Part shown: piece by piece, positions 8,293-18,662 of the stretch
Layout of the letters: each line of letters starts with the position of its first letter
Numbering within the stretch: the first letter of the stretch is position 1
Virus record (IMG/VR): IMGVR_UViG_3300038436_000240
Coordinates: 1-34,079 of that record
Source: a virus
Reading direction: 5' to 3' (one strand)
Length of the DNA: 34,079 bases
Notes under the pieces: model-generated
Databases searched by the model: none
The model's input: the letters and a program-made list of their open reading frames with translations, nothing else
Told to the model about the DNA's origin: nothing
Translations under genes and position numbers: made by a program

Positions 8293-8817
8293 ATGAAAGG
8301 AAAAATGCTTGATCTATATGAGCGATGGGATGAATCAGGACATTTAGAGGTTAAATTAAAAGCCATATCTGAAATGATATCTAAAAGAGCAACTCAAAAG
8401 CAGATTGCTGAATACTTAGGTATTACAGAGAAAACGATTATTAAACTTAAGAAAGCACATCCTAAGTTTAATGCAGCCTTTCAGTATGGTGATGAAGAAT
8501 TAAAACAAAAACTACTCGATGCCATTTATCAACGCGCGATAGGTTTTGAATATGAAGAAACACAAACAGTGATTGAAGAAACAAAGACTGGAACCAAAAA
8601 GCGCATTACTAAGTTTAAGAAACAGTCACTACCTGATATCACAGCAATTAAATACTTACTCATTACGAAATTTGGTATTGAGTATAACGAAAAGAAAGCA
8701 GAAATTGAACTTATGCAAAAACGCATAGAAAATGGTGAGGAGGTTTGGATGAATGAATATCGTGATGAAGCAAGTATCAGTACTCCAAGAGTACGAAAAC
8801 AATCCAAGAAACAATGA
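8293..8817 (+). CDS. HTH DNA-binding protein, small-terminase-like
   Basis: The 174-aa protein has an N-terminal helix-turn-helix: ISKRATQKQIAEYLGITEKTIIKLKKAHPKFN. A helical middle follows (EELKQKLLDAIYQRAIGFEYEE), then a beta-hairpin-like TQTVIEETKTGTKKRITKFKKQ and DITAIKYLLITKFG. This order matches the phBC6A51-type helix-turn-helix/small terminase family. A separate P27-type TerS adjoins TerL at 13498, so this gene is unlikely to be the packaging TerS. It may be a DNA-binding partner of the methyltransferase whose start lies inside its end (65-base overlap). GGAG lies seven bases before the ATG, within a hairpin arm. Confidence 0.65.
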   Translation: MKGKMLDLYERWDESGHLEVKLKAISEMISKRATQKQIAEYLGITEKTIIKLKKAHPKFNAAFQYGDEELKQKLLDAIYQRAIGFEYEETQTVIEETKTGTKKRITKFKKQSLPDITAIKYLLITKFGIEYNEKKAEIELMQKRIENGEEVWMNEYRDEASISTPRVRKQSKKQ

Positions 8818-9964
8818 CGAAGCGATCAAAGCAGTTGCTAACTCGATTAGGGAGTTTGGATTTAAGGTTCCAATAGTCATTACAAGTGACAACGTCATCA
8901 TAGCCGGACATACGCGCTTAAAAGCCTCTGTGTCGCTTGGCTTAGAAGAAGTGCCATGTATTGTCGCAGATGATTTAAATGAGGCACAAATCAAAGCTTT
9001 TCGCTTAGCGGATAACAAAACAGCTGAACTTGCTACTTGGGATTTATCAAGACTTGAAGAAGAGTTAGCTGGAATTGACATGGACATGCTTCAGTTTGGA
9101 TTTGAAGAAATGGAAGAACTGCTTCCAGATAATGCAGCTGATGATGATTTCGATATCGATGATGAAATTCCAGAGATACCTTTTTCTGAGATTAGCGATA
9201 TATATGAACTTGGACCTCATCGACTTATGTGTGGTGATTCAACAGATGCAAAACAAGTTGAAACATTACTTGATGGTAACACAGTAGATATGTTATTTAC
9301 CGATCCGCCTTACAATGTTGACTATGAAGGAACAGCTGGAAAAATCAAAAACGATAAGATGGAAGATAATACCTTCTATCTTTTTTTATACAGTGCTTTC
9401 CAGAACATGTTCAATCATACAAAGCCAGGTGGTGCAATCTATGTTTGTCATGCTGATACTGAGGGACTCAACTTTAGAAATGCATTTAAGAACTCTGGCT
9501 TCAAATTAGCGGAATGTCTCATTTGGGTAAAGAATGCATTAGTACTAGGCAGACAAGATTATCACTGGAGACATGAACCTATTTTATATGGATGGAAAGA
9601 AGGAGCTGCTCATTACTTTGTTGATGACAGATCTCAAGATACCATCTGGGAATATAACAAACCAAGAAAAAATGAAGAACATCCAACCATGAAACCTTTA
9701 GAGTTAGTTGGAAAAGCAATCAGCAATTCATCAAGACGTCATGAATCCGTATTAGATTTATTTGGTGGTTCTGGATCAACTATGATCGCAGCTGATCAAT
9801 TGGATCGTAAATCATATCTCATGGAGCTTGATGAAAAGTTTATCGATGTCATAGTGAAACGTTATATCAAGCATAAGGCATCTAATGATAATTGTTATTT
9901 AATCAGAAATGGAAAAAGGTCTCCACTTAGCGATTTCGATTATTTTGAAAATAAGTCACTATAG
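8753..9964 (+). CDS. ParB-like / DNA methyltransferase fusion
   Basis: A 403-aa two-domain protein. Residues 1-100 form a ParB/Srx-like domain (NNPRNNDEAIKAVANSI, then IIAGHTRLKA, then AFRLADNKTAELATWD). After an acidic linker (about 120-140) the second domain is an S-adenosylmethionine-dependent N4/N6-type methyltransferase. It has DPPY (about residue 184, motif IV) before LDLFGGSGST (about residue 337, motif I), the beta-class order. A TMKPLELVGKAI element precedes motif I. GAGGAGG precedes the ATG. Such fusions are frequent in Firmicutes phages and are thought to protect phage DNA from restriction. The metK gene downstream would feed it cofactor. Target sequence unknown. Confidence 0.87.
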   Translation: MNIVMKQVSVLQEYENNPRNNDEAIKAVANSIREFGFKVPIVITSDNVIIAGHTRLKASVSLGLEEVPCIVADDLNEAQIKAFRLADNKTAELATWDLSRLEEELAGIDMDMLQFGFEEMEELLPDNAADDDFDIDDEIPEIPFSEISDIYELGPHRLMCGDSTDAKQVETLLDGNTVDMLFTDPPYNVDYEGTAGKIKNDKMEDNTFYLFLYSAFQNMFNHTKPGGAIYVCHADTEGLNFRNAFKNSGFKLAECLIWVKNALVLGRQDYHWRHEPILYGWKEGAAHYFVDDRSQDTIWEYNKPRKNEEHPTMKPLELVGKAISNSSRRHESVLDLFGGSGSTMIAADQLDRKSYLMELDEKFIDVIVKRYIKHKASNDNCYLIRNGKRSPLSDFDYFENKSL

Positions 9965-10898: not shown

Positions 10899-12029
10899 AT
10901 GCAAGTCATAACAAGTGAATCAGTGTTTAGTGGACATCCAGATAAAGTATGTGATCAAATCAGTGATGCTATACTGGATGCCATTTTAGAACAAGATAAA
11001 AATGCTAGAGTTGCAGTTGAAACGGCTATAAAAGATGACCTAGTGTTTGTCTTTGGTGAAGTCACTACAACTGCAAAAGTCGATTATGCAGACATAGCCA
11101 AAAGCAAACTTCGTGAAATCGGCTATGAAGAAAGTTTCAAAGTCATGGAAAAGATTAGTAAACAATCTCCAAATATCGCACTTGGAGTTGATTCAACAGA
11201 ATCACATGAACAAGGTGCAGGTGATCAGGGAATCATGTTTGGTTATGCTTGTAATGAAACACAAGAGTTAATGCCACTACCGATTATGCTGGCAAATCAA
11301 ATATCGAAAGAGATGGACAAAGCTCGTAAAGAACAATATGCACATATCTTTGGTCCTGATGGCAAATGTCAGGTATCCGTTTTATATGAAAAAGGTAAAC
11401 CTAAAAAAGTGCAAACAATCGTTGTTTCAGCACAAACGAAATCATGGATAAGAAGAGAGCTATACGAAGATATCATAATCAATGAAGTTTTACCGAAAGT
11501 TCTTGATCATAAAACAATCAAAGAAGCAGAAATTCTTATTAATCCAACAGGTGAGTTTGTGATAGGTGGTCCTTATGCAGACTCTGGATTAACTGGAAGA
11601 AAGATCATTGTTGATACTTATGGTGGTTATGCAAAGCATGGCGGAGGAGCTTTCTCTGGTAAGGACGTAAGCAAGGTTGATCGCAGTGCGGCTTATTATG
11701 CCAGATTAGTAGCAAAAGCCGTTGTAGGGGCAGGTTTGGCGACACATTGTGAGATACAGCTAGGTTATGTGATTGGTATTGCTAAGCCAGTGAGTGTCTA
11801 TGTGAATACATTTAATACTGGAATTATGAGTGATGACAAGATACAACAACTTGTCAATCAAGCATTTGATTTTAGACCACAACACATTAAAAAAGAACTT
11901 GAGTTAGATAACGTCAAATTCCAGGAGTTAGCGAAGTATGGACACTTTGGTAGAGAGGATTTAAATGTTCGATGGGAACATGTAGATGGTAAGATTGCTG
12001 AATTGAGAAAGTTATATGAGAAAGCCTAA
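10899..12029 (+). CDS. metK: S-adenosylmethionine synthetase
   Basis: The 376-aa protein is a full-length MetK, forming S-adenosylmethionine from methionine and ATP. Recognisable are the N-terminal ESVFSGHPDKVCDQISDA, the ATP-binding GAGDQGIMFGYA (about 106-117), the LPIMLA segment and the catalytic-loop-like GGGAFSGKDVSKVDRSAAYYAR. Length is slightly below the usual 380-400 and all three repeated domains appear intact. RBS GGAGATGG precedes the start. The gene sits downstream of the ParB-methyltransferase, a logical consumer of SAM. Phage metK genes are known next to methyltransferases but are not universal. The HNH gene begins inside its 3' end. Confidence 0.93.
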   Translation: MQVITSESVFSGHPDKVCDQISDAILDAILEQDKNARVAVETAIKDDLVFVFGEVTTTAKVDYADIAKSKLREIGYEESFKVMEKISKQSPNIALGVDSTESHEQGAGDQGIMFGYACNETQELMPLPIMLANQISKEMDKARKEQYAHIFGPDGKCQVSVLYEKGKPKKVQTIVVSAQTKSWIRRELYEDIIINEVLPKVLDHKTIKEAEILINPTGEFVIGGPYADSGLTGRKIIVDTYGGYAKHGGGAFSGKDVSKVDRSAAYYARLVAKAVVGAGLATHCEIQLGYVIGIAKPVSVYVNTFNTGIMSDDKIQQLVNQAFDFRPQHIKKELELDNVKFQELAKYGHFGREDLNVRWEHVDGKIAELRKLYEKA

Positions 12030-12300: not shown

Positions 12301-12322
12301 CCTCGAATAAACAATTTTACTT

Positions 12323-12331
12323 TGGTATAAT
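12323..12331 (+). promoter_or_regulatory. Extended -10 promoter of accessory gene
   Basis: TGGTATAAT gives a perfect -10 (TATAAT, 12326-12331) with an extended TG. The -35 region about 17 bases upstream (TCGAAT) is weak. It lies in the gap between the HNH gene and the gene starting at 12354, giving that accessory gene its own transcription. Confidence 0.55.
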
Positions 12332-12353
12332 GTTTATAAATGAGGTGGTCAAA

Positions 12354-12956
12354 ATGAGAAAAGAAAGTGTAATTGATTATGGAGAGTATATAGTTTCAGA
12401 AGAAATACTAAAGATGCTTAATCAAGGAAACAATAAACAGTTTTCAGTATTTGCACCCTTATCAAGACAAGAAAAAGGTATTGATTTAATACTATTCAAT
12501 AGATTAAGTAGGAAAACAATTACTGTTCAAGTAAAATCATCTAGATCATATGTAGATGGCAAGAAAAATGATATAAAGTACAATTATCTTTGGTTAAACA
12601 ATTTTAATATCTCTGATGAAGTATACGCTGATTACTATGTACTCATGGGAAGTTATATTCATGTGAAATCTGAAAAATTGATTGAAAAACGTGGAATGAG
12701 TGTAAATGCTATTGATTATAAACCTATAATATTAGTTTATAGTCACTCTGAAATGGTTGAGGAACTTCAAAAATTAAGACAGAAGACAAAAGATCATCCG
12801 GAAAAATTTTTCAGTTTCAAGTTCAGAGACGAAGATGATATTATCATTGATAGAGGTTATGTTTCTGGATACAACACTCTAAATAACGGCAGTGCATCGA
12901 GAAGAGTTCAATTGTTAAAGAATAAAATTAATGAACTTGTTAATGCATTAAATTAG
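12354..12956 (+). CDS. Putative PD-(D/E)XK nuclease-like accessory protein (200 aa)
   Basis: The start at 12354 is chosen because GAGGTGG lies about eight bases upstream; an in-frame ATG at 12330 overlaps the -10 box. A core typical of restriction-endonuclease-like folds is visible: D44 in KGIDLILF, then ITVQVKSS with Q59 and K61, i.e. D-x14-QxK. An earlier acid could be E11 or E16/E17 in the first helix. DUF4365-type and related nucleases share this pattern. The remainder (YVLMGSYIHVKSE, GYVSGYNTLNNGSASR) is mixed. It has its own promoter and sits between HNH and the cos-like site, so it looks like inserted cargo. Nuclease activity is inferred from motif spacing alone. Confidence 0.6.
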   Translation: MRKESVIDYGEYIVSEEILKMLNQGNNKQFSVFAPLSRQEKGIDLILFNRLSRKTITVQVKSSRSYVDGKKNDIKYNYLWLNNFNISDEVYADYYVLMGSYIHVKSEKLIEKRGMSVNAIDYKPIILVYSHSEMVEELQKLRQKTKDHPEKFFSFKFRDEDDIIIDRGYVSGYNTLNNGSASRRVQLLKNKINELVNALN

Positions 12957-13010
12957 CCCCCCATCCTGCTAAGATATTTTTTCGAGGGGTACCGCACAGG
13001 GGGGGCAATT
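12951..13010 (+). other. Candidate cos site (packaging initiation)
   Basis: AATTAGCCCCCC (12951-12962) and GGGGGGGCAATT (12999-13010) form an inverted repeat around a 36-base centre containing a T6 run and GAGGGGTACCGC. This G/C-rich island is unlike the AT-rich surroundings. It lies between the HNH nuclease and TerS/TerL, the expected place for cos in HK97-type phages of Firmicutes. The exact nick positions cannot be read. Confidence 0.6.
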
Positions 13011-13015
13011 AAAAA

Positions 13016-13501
13016 ATGCGGGCTCTTATTTTTGAAAATCCAGAATTTAGTTTTGAAGTAGGTGAGAATATGCATGTCCTAGAAGAAAATTTTATAAGAA
13101 GTTTGATGCTTCTAAAGTTTTTAACAGATAAAATTTTGAACAGATTTAAAGAACTAAATATATCTGATGAGGAGTTTAAAAATAAGCACATTGCTTATAG
13201 TGATTTGCATATGACGCTTTGTCACAATGCCATATTTCAAGCTAGAAAATTATATGAAGCTAGTCTTAGAGATGGATTAACAGAACCTGAATGGTTGAAA
13301 TTGAAAGGATTAAGAGAAGAAATAACACATGCTCGAGATATAGAATCACAAGAAATAAAGAAAATAGCAGACTTGAATTCGGAAATAATACCTATATTAA
13401 ATAAATTAAGCTTGCATATTTTCGAGAAAAATAAAATTCAAGACGATCCATATTTTGATAGTTTTTCTAAAGTATATTTAGAGGATATTAACAAGTTATG
13501 A
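13016..13501 (+). CDS. Unknown helical protein next to cos
   Basis: Not recognised. The 161-aa product is almost entirely helical and charged (LEENFIRSLMLLKFLTDKILNRFKELN, then LKLKGLREEITHARDIESQEI), with no membrane segment. Two starts are possible: ATG 13016, about ten bases after the G-run of the cos-like site, or ATG 13070 behind AGGTGAG, which would give 143 aa. It overlaps TerS by four bases. In most related phages TerS follows cos directly, so this is an extra gene. Base composition is AT-rich like the accessory gene on the other side of cos, which suggests they could be acquired cargo. A packaging-accessory role is an alternative. Confidence 0.6.
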   Translation: MRALIFENPEFSFEVGENMHVLEENFIRSLMLLKFLTDKILNRFKELNISDEEFKNKHIAYSDLHMTLCHNAIFQARKLYEASLRDGLTEPEWLKLKGLREEITHARDIESQEIKKIADLNSEIIPILNKLSLHIFEKNKIQDDPYFDSFSKVYLEDINKL

Positions 13502-13821
13502 AAATAGAACATGAATACGAGCGATTAAAGTCGCTTTTTTCTTTGGTTGATGAATCAAAGACAGAACTAGTAGATAATCTAATTTATCAAGCTGCATTTA
13601 TGAAGGTGGAACTTGATAAGTTACAAGAGCAAATCAGAAAGCATGGAGCTATTCAAATATCCAGCAAAGGCACACAACGTCAAACTGAAGCAGCTAAGTA
13701 TTACACGAAACTTGTGAATTCATATGGGACAGTCATTAAAACACTAAATACAATTCTTGGAACACAAGTTGATGATGGAGATGATGCATTTGATGAGTTT
13801 CTTAAGAGAGCGAATGAATGA
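13498..13821 (+). CDS. terS: Terminase small subunit (P27 family)
   Basis: The 107-aa protein is helical with a central basic GAIQISSKGTQRQTEAAKYYTKL segment and a tail VIKTLNTILG followed by DDGDDAFDEFLKRANE, the pattern of P27-family small terminases. These recognise packaging sites and load the large subunit. It overlaps the preceding gene by four bases and TerL by four (ATGA), so TerS and TerL are translationally coupled. The candidate recognition site is the G/C-rich inverted repeat about 0.5 kb upstream. Confidence 0.83.
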   Translation: MKIEHEYERLKSLFSLVDESKTELVDNLIYQAAFMKVELDKLQEQIRKHGAIQISSKGTQRQTEAAKYYTKLVNSYGTVIKTLNTILGTQVDDGDDAFDEFLKRANE

Positions 13822-15461
13822 ACTATCTAATCGAATACTACAATGAAATTGAAGATGGTAATATATTAGTAGGTCAAGAACTAAAAACGGAGTTAGATCA
13901 ACTTATCCAAGATCTGGAAAATCCTACATACATTTTTGATGAAAAACCAGGTAACTTGAGAATTGATTTCATTGAGACATTTTGTAAACACACAAAATCA
14001 CCATTTAATGGATTACCATTCATCTTAGAACTTTGGGAAAAAGCACTCATTCAAACTGCTTATGGATTTAAAATGGCTGATTCAGGACTCAGAAGATTTA
14101 ATGAAGTCATATTACTGATTGCTCGCAAGAATGGTAAGACAACATTTGTTGCAGGTATTGATTTAGCTGAGTTTTTTCTTTCAAGCGGTGGAGTGGATAT
14201 CGTATGTGCTTCTAATACAACAGAACAAGCTAACATTCTTTTTGAAGAGATTAATAATATGAGAGAGCAATCTCCAGCTTTATCCAAAGATACTAGAAGC
14301 AAGAAGAACATCTTTCATATCTATTCACCAAAAACAAAGAATAAGATAAAGAAGCTATCTGCTCAATCAAGAAATAAAGATGGATACAATATCGAGGTTG
14401 GTTGTATTGATGAGGTTCATGAAATGACTGATTCTAAAGTCTATGACGCAATCAAACAATCACAATCAACTAAAAAAGAACCGCTCATATTTATCATAAC
14501 CACTGAAGGAACAACTATCGGTGGTTTTTTAGATAGCAAGTTAGATTATGCTAGAAAGATGCTAAAAGGTGAAATCTCAGATCATAGGGTATTGCCCTGG
14601 TTATATACTCAGGACTCAACCAAAGAAATATATGAAGATCAATCAACTTGGCAAAAGTCAAATCCGAGTATTGGTGTTGTTAAAACGCCTTTATATTTAG
14701 AAGATGTTATGAACAAATCGAAACATGATTTATCAACTAGAGTGACGATGCTTTGTAAGGATTTTAATATCAAACAAGCAGATTCTGGATCGTGGTTATC
14801 CTTTGATGACTTAAACAATGAAGATACTTACTCAATTGATGAACTAAGAGATTCATATGCGGTTGGTGGCGTAGACTTATCATCGACCACTGATTTAACA
14901 GCTGCAGTACTTGTCATTCAAAAACGAGATAGCAACAAGAAGTATGTGATTCCACATTTTTTTATGCCAAGCGAAGTTGTAGAGAAAAGAATCAAAGAAG
15001 ATAACGTGCCATATGATATCTGGATTAAAAAGGGTTTTGTAACTTTAACTGAAGGCAATCAAAATGACTTTAGTTTGGTGACTCAATGGTTCATGAAGAT
15101 GATACAAATATATGGTATTAGACCTCTATGGGTTGGATATGATCCATGGAATTCTCAATATTGGATTAAAGAAATGGAAGATTTAGGATTTAATATGGAT
15201 AAAGTAAGACAAGGCATCTATTCGTTGTCCGAACCTATGAAAATCTTGGAAGCTGATCTAAAGAACAACCTGGTAAATTACAATAATAATCCAATCATGA
15301 AATGGTGTCTATCAAATACACAAGCGAAAGTTGATTTAAATGGAAACATACAACCATCAAAACTTAACTCTAAATACAAACGAATTGATGGTACAGTTGC
15401 TTTAATCATTGCATATGTTATTCTTAATAGATATAAAACAGACTATGAGAACATGTTATAA
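13818..15461 (+). CDS. terL: Terminase large subunit
   Basis: The 547-aa packaging motor and nuclease of the Terminase_1/HK97 type. Walker A is ARKNGKTT (about 102-109), Walker B and catalytic acid are GCIDEVHEM (about 197), and coupling motif FIITTEGTT follows. The C-terminal RNase H-like nuclease begins at AVGGVDLSSTTDLTA, with the first metal-binding Asp, and continues to YDPWNSQYW and GTVALIIAYVIL. Length is typical. It pumps DNA into the prohead through the portal and cuts at cos together with HNH and TerS. The next structural gene (portal) is separated from it by a 1.2-kb cargo island. Confidence 0.93.
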   Translation: MNYLIEYYNEIEDGNILVGQELKTELDQLIQDLENPTYIFDEKPGNLRIDFIETFCKHTKSPFNGLPFILELWEKALIQTAYGFKMADSGLRRFNEVILLIARKNGKTTFVAGIDLAEFFLSSGGVDIVCASNTTEQANILFEEINNMREQSPALSKDTRSKKNIFHIYSPKTKNKIKKLSAQSRNKDGYNIEVGCIDEVHEMTDSKVYDAIKQSQSTKKEPLIFIITTEGTTIGGFLDSKLDYARKMLKGEISDHRVLPWLYTQDSTKEIYEDQSTWQKSNPSIGVVKTPLYLEDVMNKSKHDLSTRVTMLCKDFNIKQADSGSWLSFDDLNNEDTYSIDELRDSYAVGGVDLSSTTDLTAAVLVIQKRDSNKKYVIPHFFMPSEVVEKRIKEDNVPYDIWIKKGFVTLTEGNQNDFSLVTQWFMKMIQIYGIRPLWVGYDPWNSQYWIKEMEDLGFNMDKVRQGIYSLSEPMKILEADLKNNLVNYNNNPIMKWCLSNTQAKVDLNGNIQPSKLNSKYKRIDGTVALIIAYVILNRYKTDYENML

Positions 15462-15473
15462 ATACAAAATTAC

Positions 15474-15502
15474 TTGTATTTGAATAAAAAAAATGCTAGA
15501 AT
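15474..15502 (+). promoter_or_regulatory. Promoter of the 47-aa gene
   Basis: TTGTAT (15474-15479) and TAGAAT (15497-15502) with a 17-base spacer, immediately after terL and about 24 bases before the RBS/ATG of the small gene at 15526. Confidence 0.6.
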
Positions 15503-15525
15503 ATAAAGACAAGAGAGGTGTCTGT

Positions 15526-15669
15526 ATGGATTTAGAAAAAATCAAAGAGATAGAAGATATGATTTTTGAATTAGGTCTTGAAGACAAAGAAAAAGAAGAA
15601 CTATCTATTGGTTCATTTGATGGTAAAAACAAGGACCAAGAAATTATATTTTCAGTTAATTCAATTTAA
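15526..15669 (+). CDS. 47-aa acidic protein in cargo island
   Basis: Not recognised. The gene has its own promoter, an AGAGAGGTG RBS about seven bases before the ATG and a shared terminator, so it is very likely real despite its size. The product is highly charged and acidic: a helical first half (MDLEKIKEIEDMIFELG, EDKEKEE) and a strand-like end (DQEIIFSVNSI). There is no membrane segment. It converges on the minus-strand protease gene, the two stops lying 16 bases apart. It could be a regulator, inhibitor or substrate of the protease, or an independent gene. Only its existence is well supported. Confidence 0.65.
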   Translation: MDLEKIKEIEDMIFELGLEDKEKEELSIGSFDGKNKDQEIIFSVNSI

Positions 15670-15670
15670 A

Positions 15671-15701
15671 AAAGAATGCTCAAATTAAGCATTCTTTTTT
15701 T
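15671..15701. terminator. Bidirectional intrinsic terminator
   Basis: AAAGAATGCT (15671-15680) and AGCATTCTTT (15688-15697) pair perfectly over ten bases around a seven-base loop, with A-run on the left and T-run on the right. It can end transcription from both the 47-aa gene and the convergent protease gene. The hairpin overlaps the last codons of the protease. Confidence 0.85.
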
Positions 15702-16593
15702 GTGGCTGAATTATTGGCATTGAAGAAATCAAAGTTTTGCCATTATTATTCTCAATGATTTTTACTGCTGACGAAATCTCAAATGTAAGATTTACAGAAT
15801 GATGTATAGATAATACCAAATCTTGAAGAGTCTGATCATCTTCTAGGTTTTTTATTTTAAGTCCCACATTCTTACACCAAGTATGGTTAAAATGTCTTGC
15901 GTGGAATTTTGAATCTTGATTTTCGTTTAGTTTATTGACAATATTGTTTATAAGCTCATCTTTATTTTCTTCATCTTTTAGCATGCATTTTGATAGCCAT
16001 TCTTTAACTAATATACCAGATAAATCAATGGCATTTATTACTGTTTTATAATCTGCTTTATTATATTTATCAAGGAGAATTTTCCAATAAAAATACGACT
16101 TGGAATCTTTAGTCAACTGCTCTTGAGCTTCTTCAAATTCTTTTTTAATGTTAAATGCAGGAATACCACCAAACTGAGGATCAATAGGTCCTAGACTAGA
16201 ATGATACCCCATTACTATTTCTTTGGAGGCACAAGCTAACATAGTCCCGGCAGACATTGCCATATGTGGAACAATTACACGAATATCGGAATTGAAAATA
16301 TCCTTAAGATAATTTACAATCGATTCAGTTGCTACAGGGTTTCCACCTGGTGTATGTAGAATCAGATCTAATCCTTTATCCCTTTCAAGGTTGTGAACTG
16401 TTTCCATAAAACCATTCATGTCGGTATCATTGATATCTACGTTTTGGTGTTGTTTAGTCAAAAATGCAGAATAGTATATGATAGTATTTCTTCCAGTGTA
16501 TTCACTTAGTGATTTTATAAATCCACGTCTAACATCATCAATATTTTTTCTATTTTGTTTTATATCGTTTAATATTTCGCTCCAAGTAGGCAT
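15685..16593 (-). CDS. SppA/ClpP-fold serine protease (SDH family)
   Basis: The 302-aa product is the only convincing minus-strand gene. It has the ClpP/SppA crotonase-like fold signature of the serine-dehydrogenase-proteinase (Ser-Asp-His) family: LILHTPGGNP (oxyanion region, residues 77-86), MAMSAGTMLA with nucleophile S114, and SSLGPIDPQ with D138. A histidine cluster at H231/H234/H237 before the GLKI segment probably supplies the third residue. No clear signal peptide or membrane anchor is seen, so it is likely cytosolic. It has a GGGGG RBS and its own strong promoter. It is not the head protease, which is separate at 18072. Placed between terL and portal in opposite orientation, it looks like an expressed moron (superinfection or defence role possible). 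Confidence 0.83.
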   Translation of the reverse strand: MPTWSEILNDIKQNRKNIDDVRRGFIKSLSEYTGRNTIIYYSAFLTKQHQNVDINDTDMNGFMETVHNLERDKGLDLILHTPGGNPVATESIVNYLKDIFNSDIRVIVPHMAMSAGTMLACASKEIVMGYHSSLGPIDPQFGGIPAFNIKKEFEEAQEQLTKDSKSYFYWKILLDKYNKADYKTVINAIDLSGILVKEWLSKCMLKDEENKDELINNIVNKLNENQDSKFHARHFNHTWCKNVGLKIKNLEDDQTLQDLVLSIHHSVNLTFEISSAVKIIENNNGKTLISSMPIIQPQKKNA

Positions 16594-16625
16594 TTAAATT
16601 CCCCCTTCGTATGATATTTATATTA

Positions 16626-16654
16626 ATTATATCATCATTTTAAAAGATTGTCAC
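16626..16654 (-). promoter_or_regulatory. Promoter of the minus-strand protease
   Basis: On the minus strand, GTGACA (16654-16649) and TATAAT (16631-16626) are separated by 17 bases, close to consensus, and lie about 35 bases before the protease start. The promoter overlaps the short gap before the portal gene. Confidence 0.72.
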
Positions 16655-16671
16655 CCTGTTAGGAGGTTCAT

Positions 16672-17889
16672 ATGGGTCTTATTAAAAGGAAAAGTAAAAC
16701 TGGATCATTTGATGCACTCCAGTTAATTAGTAATTTAAATACATTTTATACACCGTTTGGAACAAATATTTCAAAAAGTGATGTGGTTAAGATATGCATT
16801 GATAGGGTTGCGAGCCAATGTGCTAAGCTCAAACCAAGATTTATCAAAACCGAAAACGATAAGACAGTGACCGAGAAAAAAGGTCAACTGTCTTTTTTAT
16901 TGAAGTATAAGCCAAACGAGATTATGACTCCCTACGATTTCATCTACAAAACGATTACATTGTTATTACTGAATGATAATGCGTTTATTTATCCAAAGTT
17001 TGATAAGAATTCAGGTGAACTCAAAGGTATCTATCCATTAAGACCAATTACAGTTGAAATGATTGTTGATAATGCTGACACCTATTTTATCAAGCTGCTA
17101 TTTGATAATGGAGAATCATACATTTTACCATACGACAATATTATCCATTTGAGACGTCATTTTGGACAAAACGATATCTTTGGTGGTAATGGATCAAGTG
17201 GTGATCATGAGGCTATTCTTAAAACAATATCAATTAATGATAGCTTGTTACAAGGGATTGATAATGCAATTAAATCCTCCATGCAGATTAAAGGTATTGT
17301 TAAGATGAACGGTATGTTATCAGAAGCTGATAAGAAAAAACAAAGAGAACTCTTTGATAGTGCACTTTCTGATTCAGTCAACACAAAAGGAAGTTCTATC
17401 ATTCCTATTGATCTAAAGAGTGAGTATATTCCTTTGGATGTTGATCCGAAATTAATTGATAAAGATACACTAGAATTCTTGCAATCAAAAATACTCGATT
17501 ATTTTGGTGTCTCAGTTCCAATATTCACAAGTAAGTATTCAGAAGAAGAGTTTAATTCATTTTACGAGTCAACCATTGAGCCTTTAGCTATTCAACTTAG
17601 CGAGGCTTTTTCTATAGGCTTACTTACCAATAATCAATTAGAACGTGGAGAAGAAATTATCTTTTATAGCGAAAGATTACAATATGCTTCATGGAACACT
17701 AAAGTTACTGCAATTGAAAAACTCATGAGTCTAGGAATTATGTCACTCAATGAATCAAGAGCGCTACTCGGATTAGAACCTATAGAAGGTGGAAACAAAC
17801 GCCTTCAATCATTAAACTTTGTTGATGCTGATAAAGCAAATCAATATCAAGTTGGAACGGAGGAACCTAAAGATGAAAATAACAGTTAA
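16672..17889 (+). CDS. Portal protein (HK97 family)
   Basis: The 405-aa protein matches HK97-type portals: N-terminal SKSDVVKICIDRVASQCAKL, then LLKYKPNEIMTPYDF, LLLNDNAFIYPKF, the DNIIHLRRHF strand, and the wing/stem region up to SRALLGLEPIEGG. Twelve copies form the ring at one vertex through which TerL pumps DNA. RBS AGGAGG precedes the start. It begins the head operon right after the minus-strand protease promoter, so no dedicated + strand promoter is evident in the gap. Length is typical (380-420). Confidence 0.92.
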   Translation: MGLIKRKSKTGSFDALQLISNLNTFYTPFGTNISKSDVVKICIDRVASQCAKLKPRFIKTENDKTVTEKKGQLSFLLKYKPNEIMTPYDFIYKTITLLLLNDNAFIYPKFDKNSGELKGIYPLRPITVEMIVDNADTYFIKLLFDNGESYILPYDNIIHLRRHFGQNDIFGGNGSSGDHEAILKTISINDSLLQGIDNAIKSSMQIKGIVKMNGMLSEADKKKQRELFDSALSDSVNTKGSSIIPIDLKSEYIPLDVDPKLIDKDTLEFLQSKILDYFGVSVPIFTSKYSEEEFNSFYESTIEPLAIQLSEAFSIGLLTNNQLERGEEIIFYSERLQYASWNTKVTAIEKLMSLGIMSLNESRALLGLEPIEGGNKRLQSLNFVDADKANQYQVGTEEPKDENNS

Positions 17890-18088
17890 TGGAAAGATTT
17901 CAGAAGATGCTTTAAAAGTTATTCTGGAAACACAAAAAGCAAAAACGATCATCATTGATGACTATTGTAAGAAGGAAAAACTCGAGTCACTTTTCTATAA
18001 AGACTCTGAGCTTGAATATGAATATCAAAAACAAGTAACACCAAAACCAAAGAAAGTAGAGACACGTAAGAATGATAAAGGAAACTAG
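17873..18088 (+). CDS. Small hypothetical protein between portal and protease (71 aa)
   Basis: The start at 17873 lies behind GGAGG and overlaps the portal end by 17 bases; its own end overlaps the protease start by 17 bases. The first half looks like a compact strand-helix-strand (MKITVNGKISEDALKVIL then KTIIIDDY), the end is lysine-rich (PKPKKVETRKNDKGN). No family name can be given. Small ORFs at this spot are common in HK97-type phages, so a head-assembly accessory role is plausible but unsupported by motif. Confidence 0.6.
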   Translation: MKITVNGKISEDALKVILETQKAKTIIIDDYCKKEKLESLFYKDSELEYEYQKQVTPKPKKVETRKNDKGN

Positions 18089-18662
18089 ATTAGCTGATGT
18101 CACGCTTCATGAAGAAGACGACAAGATGATATTAGAAGGCTATGCATTAGTCTTTAACAATGAAACATTAATAGGTGATGAAGAATATGGTTTCCTTGAG
18201 GAAATCGATTCAAGAGCCTTATCGGAAACTAAAATGAAGGATGTTCCTATGAAGTACAATCATATGGACTCCTTTTTAATTATCGCTAGAACTAAGAATC
18301 AATCCCTATCCCTTACTGTAGATAGTATCGGTTTGAAAGTACGTGCTGAATTATTAGACACAAACACCAATCAAGACATCTACAAAATGGTAAGAAGTGG
18401 ATTGTTGGATAAGATGAGTTTTGCCTTTACGGTTGATGAACAAGTATGGAACCGAGAAGGTAGAATTCCAAAGAGAACTATTACAAAAATTGAAAGGTTG
18501 TATGATGTGTCGGTTGTGGATACTCCAGCATATGATGCAACTAGTATATACGCTCGTTCTTTAGAATCTATGGAGTTAGAACTAAAGGCTATGGATTTAG
18601 CTGAGCAGCAACAAAAATCAAACATTATCAAAAAACGTATCAAAATCAAAACCCAAATCTAA
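18072..18662 (+). CDS. Prohead protease (HK97 family, U35)
   Basis: The 196-aa serine protease cleaves the N-terminal delta domain of the major capsid protein during maturation. Family motifs visible are EGYALVFNN, EEIDSRAL, PMKYNHMD with H64, and MSFAFTV with S116, the His-Ser catalytic pair, plus SVVDTPAYDATS near the end. The C-terminal lysine-rich extension (about residues 165-196) follows the protease fold. It is immediately followed by the capsid gene with only a 15-base gap, the canonical order. Confidence 0.92.
   Translation: MIKETRLADVTLHEEDDKMILEGYALVFNNETLIGDEEYGFLEEIDSRALSETKMKDVPMKYNHMDSFLIIARTKNQSLSLTVDSIGLKVRAELLDTNTNQDIYKMVRSGLLDKMSFAFTVDEQVWNREGRIPKRTITKIERLYDVSVVDTPAYDATSIYARSLESMELELKAMDLAEQQQKSNIIKKRIKIKTQI

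Follow-up and report, generated by a model that had tools for sequence, protein, structure and literature searches.

The window, i.e. the whole stretch of 34,079 nucleotides analysed here (IMG/VR record IMGVR_UViG_3300038436_000240), carries a two-gene module that is mobile among temperate phages, lodged in a cargo hotspot between the terL and portal genes and comprising a predicted serine protease of the SDH/ClpP fold and a small acidic partner. The most likely function of this module, to which we give a probability of roughly 0.5, is anti-phage (superinfection) defence, with the protease as the effector working together with its partner. It is not ordinary phage architecture, being a conserved, unnamed pair at a site where anti-phage genes are carried.

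The first-pass annotation had described a small acidic gene on the forward strand facing an SDH-type protease on the reverse strand between terL and portal. This layout was recovered: a 47-aa ORF (+) and a 302-aa ORF (-) converge between the two phage genes, and the latter matches the Pfam SDH_protease profile. The features of the region are:

13818..15461, + strand: terL, bordering the cargo slot on the left (terminase large subunit, PHROG 9, E 4.7e-145)
15474..15502, + strand: promoter-like site preceding the small gene (TTGTAT-17-TAGAAT plus extended TG; 8/12 consensus matches)
15526..15669, + strand: acidic small partner gene, 47 aa (MDLEKIKEIEDMIFELGLEDKEKEELSIGSFDGKNKDQEIIFSVNSI), an ORF with the SD-like GAGAGGTG and the partner motif
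15668..15700, bidirectional: intrinsic terminator common to both genes, perfect 13-bp stem and 7-nt loop
15685..16593, - strand: SDH/ClpP-fold serine protease, 302 aa, predicted nucleophile Ser114 (Pfam, PHROG, AlphaFold, Foldseek)
16626..16654, - strand: predicted sigma70-type promoter for the protease gene (GTGACA-17-TATAAT plus extended TG; 11/12 consensus matches)
16672..17889, + strand: portal gene, right border of the cargo slot (Pfam Phage_portal, E 1.3e-52)
18072-18662: prohead (capsid maturation) protease of the window phage (Pfam Peptidase_S78)

Each gene had been credited with a well-formed promoter of 17-base spacing. The spacing is 17 in both and the description fits the protease promoter, which is the best-scoring site of the region, but the site of the small gene is weaker. 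An SD sequence, AAGGGGG, precedes the ATG of the protease. The terminator, likewise called perfect and bidirectional, has a stem without mismatch and U-runs on both strands, with folding z-scores of -4.4 (+) and -5.8 (-).

On the basis of profile matches, the predicted fold and the conserved serine, the protease belongs to the SDH_protease / Clp-fold serine protease superfamily. The Pfam profile PF01972 matches its core (E 2.4e-23; 83 bits against a cut-off of 31.3), and PHROG 11747, a family listed as of unknown function, matches it over the full length (E 8.5e-91). Its score of 92.1 bits against the NCBIfam equivalog NF047768 (Clp_like_SDH) lies far below the cut-off of 250, and the protein therefore represents a separate branch. 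The AlphaFold model has a pLDDT of 93.6, and its top Foldseek matches are SppA and ClpP. Ser114 is invariant in all 66 sequences compared and aligns with the serine of the SAG(T) motif in 1510-N. While the protein thus shares its fold and an aligned nucleophile serine with ClpP, SppA and 1510-N (NfeD), it differs from them in being 302 aa long and having an additional conserved C-terminal half, which contains the invariant residues H231, E251, H264, H265 and K278. Four of these (H231, H264, H265 and K278), along with H80 and D138, which are also invariant in the 66 relatives, are candidate active-site partners of Ser114. In the catalytic dyad of 1510-N and SppA a Lys is expected in a region where the protease has none conserved, and the helix following Ser114 contains no conserved Lys in the alignment of the 66 sequences. 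Inspection by eye revealed no obvious signal peptide.

The 47-aa product contains 14 D/E as against 6 K residues, and its predicted structure consists of an N-terminal helix (residues 3-15) followed by a low-confidence, probably disordered remainder (overall pLDDT 60.7). It showed no notable match in Pfam, PHROG, PADLOC or NCBIfam, and none in a tblastn search against phage records. To determine its relationship with the protease we relied on the genomic context of relatives of the latter, gathered from phage and plasmid records, 80 IMG/VR contigs and genome searches. Phages, prophages and plasmids from many phyla have full-length relatives, most of them adjoined by a short ORF (about 48-92 aa), so that the pair, whose co-occurrence elsewhere the first-pass annotation had proposed to look for, is present well outside the window. 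The opposite outcome envisaged there, a protease that everywhere lacks the small gene, was not observed: an adjacent ORF of 40-100 aa with an ATG or GTG start and a ribosome-binding site accompanies 57 of 71 proteases (about 80%), while among the other long ORFs from the same loci 84 of 211 have one (40%; Fisher 3.5e-9). Where the partners can be aligned their dN/dS values range from 0.06 to 0.42, indicating that they are protein-coding and under purifying selection, and they diverge faster than their proteases. DNA of a Klebsiella homologue found no match in the complete genomes of E. coli.

The position of the partner varies. In most relatives it lies directly upstream of the protease or overlaps its start; in most of the Gram-positive-type branch it is downstream on the same strand; and in the window and two further loci (L025 and L097) the genes are convergent. 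In the protease tree the window falls within a branch (support 99/98) that includes all convergent and most downstream cases, so that the partner has been retained through changes of position. An N-terminal motif of 17 residues, roughly E-I-x-x-L-[YF]-x-x-L-G-[IL], was derived from 33 partners chosen for its visible presence, and the leave-one-out result, in which 31 of 33 ranked first, is for this reason optimistic. The corresponding PSSM ranks the 47-aa ORF first among 165 ORFs of the window (16.9 bits versus 9.4 for the next; shuffle p 0.005), the window having been kept out of the training set although the resemblance had been noticed beforehand. A full-length HMM of the 33 partners does not single it out (1.3 bits, far down a list of 311 window ORFs). 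As only the short N-terminal motif is common to the 47-aa protein and the other partners, homology between them rests on motif and position, and many other adjacent small ORFs are devoid of the motif. These data identify the 47-aa gene as a true partner of the protease in a genuine, widespread pair. Some relatives have no recognisable partner of the usual kind, among them L100 and L102, which are close on the protease tree; in both, its place is taken by another type of small ORF downstream, whose product begins with 'NPAYPL..[LF].SP..F' and which is present in tandem in L102. Yet another partner type, with a common 'FDxYGNYIFP' motif, is encoded downstream of the protease in a separate branch (L074 and L084).

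The slot was surveyed in portal relatives of 79-100% identity from 80 IMG/VR contigs, 70 of which contain both borders; since these contigs are partly redundant, the counts describe contigs rather than independent insertions. The survey shows the terL-portal junction to be a hotspot for cargo. In 24 of the 70 relatives the slot is empty, with 9-22 nt between terL and portal (e.g. TAG GAGGTGCAC ATG), as is the case in the closest ones, whose portal proteins are 98-99% identical; this bears out the view that the two genes are normally adjacent. The other 46 have 174-1692 nt of cargo, mostly a single gene, drawn from 23 unrelated protein clusters. Given these empty sites in close relatives, together with its own promoter-like sites and terminator, the gene pair qualifies as the self-contained moron that it had been taken for. 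Apart from the window virus and copies identical to it, no contig has the pair in this slot. Of the other cargo ORFs, 43 of 45 share the strand of terL and often follow it so closely as to leave no space for a promoter; this points to late (lytic) rather than lysogenic expression, and implies that expression in the prophage state is not general to the slot. Literature searches found no published account of a cargo slot at this junction.

Recognisable cargo includes Shedu SduA (PADLOC, 4e-73), AbiH (Pfam, 6.8e-43), Uzume UzuA (2e-60) and an AbiU2-like HEPN protein (HEPN_AbiU2, 4e-7). A trypsin-like protease in three contigs (L129, L137 and L140) matches the RT-Protease XI protease domain (4.5e-20) and the candidate system PDC-M35A; it constitutes a second protease type in the slot, unrelated to the SDH-type one. 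As a control, none of 10 core proteins of the window had a PADLOC match. Most of the cargo is uncharacterised, and most of the 23 clusters are without a defence annotation. The unannotated cargo genes at these junctions (L109-L188) are candidate defence genes. Such cargo includes proteins of 275-288 aa (L128/L134/L138/L144), 252 aa (L126/L148/L178), about 490 aa (L151/L170) and 337 aa (L152/L153); a 221-aa protein in L119/L120 is weakly proteasome-like.

That the slot of relatives holds Shedu, AbiH, Uzume and AbiU2-like genes lends the defence reading strong evidence by association, and on the company kept there an anti-phage function seems slightly better than an even bet. This is tempered by the fact that phage cargo slots can also carry genes unrelated to defence. 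A comparable situation is seen in the defence hotspots of P2/P4 prophages (PMC9122126), where a fixed slot of related phages likewise holds unrelated anti-phage genes; the slot described here differs in being the terL-portal junction, amid structural genes, of Acholeplasma-type phages.

With respect to mechanism, the SDH-type protease would be the effector, and there is a fair chance that it is an effector of a new kind. The small partner, with its short helix and acidic, probably disordered tail, might bind the protease and set its activity or target, most likely by restraining it or by serving as a bait substrate; an invading phage would then upset the complex, and the freed protease would cut a phage or host protein and thereby halt the infection. 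That the partner binds the protease and restrains or directs it is a tentative proposal, drawn from the architecture. It is somewhat doubtful, though conceivable, that the pair represents a wholly new kind of immune device, in which a protease of the ClpP/SDH fold is combined with a hypervariable, mostly disordered infection sensor or bait and which temperate phages and plasmids have carried among phyla; the proposed spread covers Mycoplasmatota and other Gram-positive-type hosts, Bacteroidota, Planctomycetota, Pseudomonadota and Actinomycetota.

As had been suspected, a described system of this composition was found neither in Pfam, PADLOC or NCBIfam nor in the searchable literature. PADLOC models gave no meaningful match to the protease or the 47-aa protein (best 0.0064, a type I specificity subunit). 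Nothing relevant on SDH proteases in defence was present in the searchable literature, and the defence-discovery papers examined do not mention an SDH/ClpP-like protease. While the window protease matches PHROG 11747 and PF01972, a partner gene is absent from the descriptions of both these families and of NF047768. PHROG 11747, a phage-wide family, is now linked with a small partner that regularly adjoins it and, by way of one phage group, with a slot holding recognised anti-phage genes. The pair accordingly provides a concrete two-gene hypothesis that can be tested in ordinary laboratory hosts, and the terL-portal slot a compact source of further candidates alongside Shedu, AbiH and Uzume.

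The main rival to the defence reading, albeit an unlikely one, is a toxin-antitoxin (addiction) module, in which the protease would be the toxin and the acidic small protein the antitoxin, and which would serve prophage or plasmid maintenance with phage defence as a secondary effect. As in type II toxin-antitoxin systems, a small gene stands beside a potentially damaging enzyme, mostly directly upstream and often overlapping its start, with the significant adjacency described above; the pair also occurs on plasmids and phage-plasmids, and the partner is short and of low-confidence prediction beyond one helix. However, the predicted effector here is a protease, the pair has three gene arrangements, and the partner has no recognisable DNA-binding (autoregulatory) domain of the kind found in antitoxins. 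The usual toxin-antitoxin coupling is broken by the promoter-like site that each gene has in the window and by the convergent or downstream arrangements elsewhere, and the slot is one shared with single-gene defence systems. It is improbable that the protease is a host-fitness moron unrelated to phages, functioning for example in protein quality control or stress proteolysis. SDH-type proteases do form a broad bacterial family (PF01972, NF047768), and relatives are present in MAG contigs, but this would leave both the hypervariable partner and the Shedu, AbiH, Uzume and AbiU2-like genes of the slot unexplained.

The surroundings of the relatives bear on a further alternative. The protease adjoins or lies near tyrosine integrases in nine loci (L025, L028, L041, L043, L045, L053, L059, L082 and L085) and is near serine recombinases in two (L035 and L097), giving integrase or recombinase neighbours in about ten loci overall. 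Amidase genes are nearby in L019 and L026; in L097 the protease follows an S24-type repressor-like gene by 33 nt on the same strand; and in an Enterobacter phage-plasmid a protease pseudogene lies between an antiterminator and a holin. Positions of this sort are accessory, and several are typical for genes expressed in lysogeny. The repressor, integrase and antiterminator neighbours would be consistent with a prophage regulator that sets lysogeny or induction by targeting the phage's own or a competing repressor, or a host regulator. Nevertheless, the sites of the protease vary widely among phages, close relatives of the window phage do without it, and in two MAG contigs (L002 and L003) it lies beside seemingly ordinary chromosomal genes, making this role quite improbable. 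Much further removed from likelihood is a function in virion assembly as a second capsid-maturation protease. Head-maturation proteases of the Clp fold exist (with weak PHROG and NCBIfam matches here) and the portal gene is adjacent, but the SDH protease is encoded on the other strand and has a promoter of its own. A head-maturation role was rejected in view of the separate Peptidase_S78 protein and the absence of the gene from relatives with 98-99% identical portals.

The element itself is a chromosomal prophage of an Acholeplasma-like bacterium, because a 60.8-kb contig of an Acholeplasma MAG, whose first 18,973 bases equal the window from position 15107 to its end, runs from there into ordinary chromosomal genes, among which ABC transporter and V-type ATPase subunit genes were recognised by eye. 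The last two genes of the window resemble large serine recombinases, again by eye. A second variable slot is located at 12301-13497, between an HNH-like gene and terS, and the corresponding gap in relatives is 485-1848 nt; its DUF4365-like gene (12330-12956) was found in none of the relatives, and a 161-aa gene (13016-13501) is present in some of them only. Upstream of this slot, the window also contains a complete gene for MetK (S-adenosylmethionine synthetase; 10899-12029), downstream of a ParB-like/DNA methylase gene (8753-9964), and many relatives have the MetK gene too.
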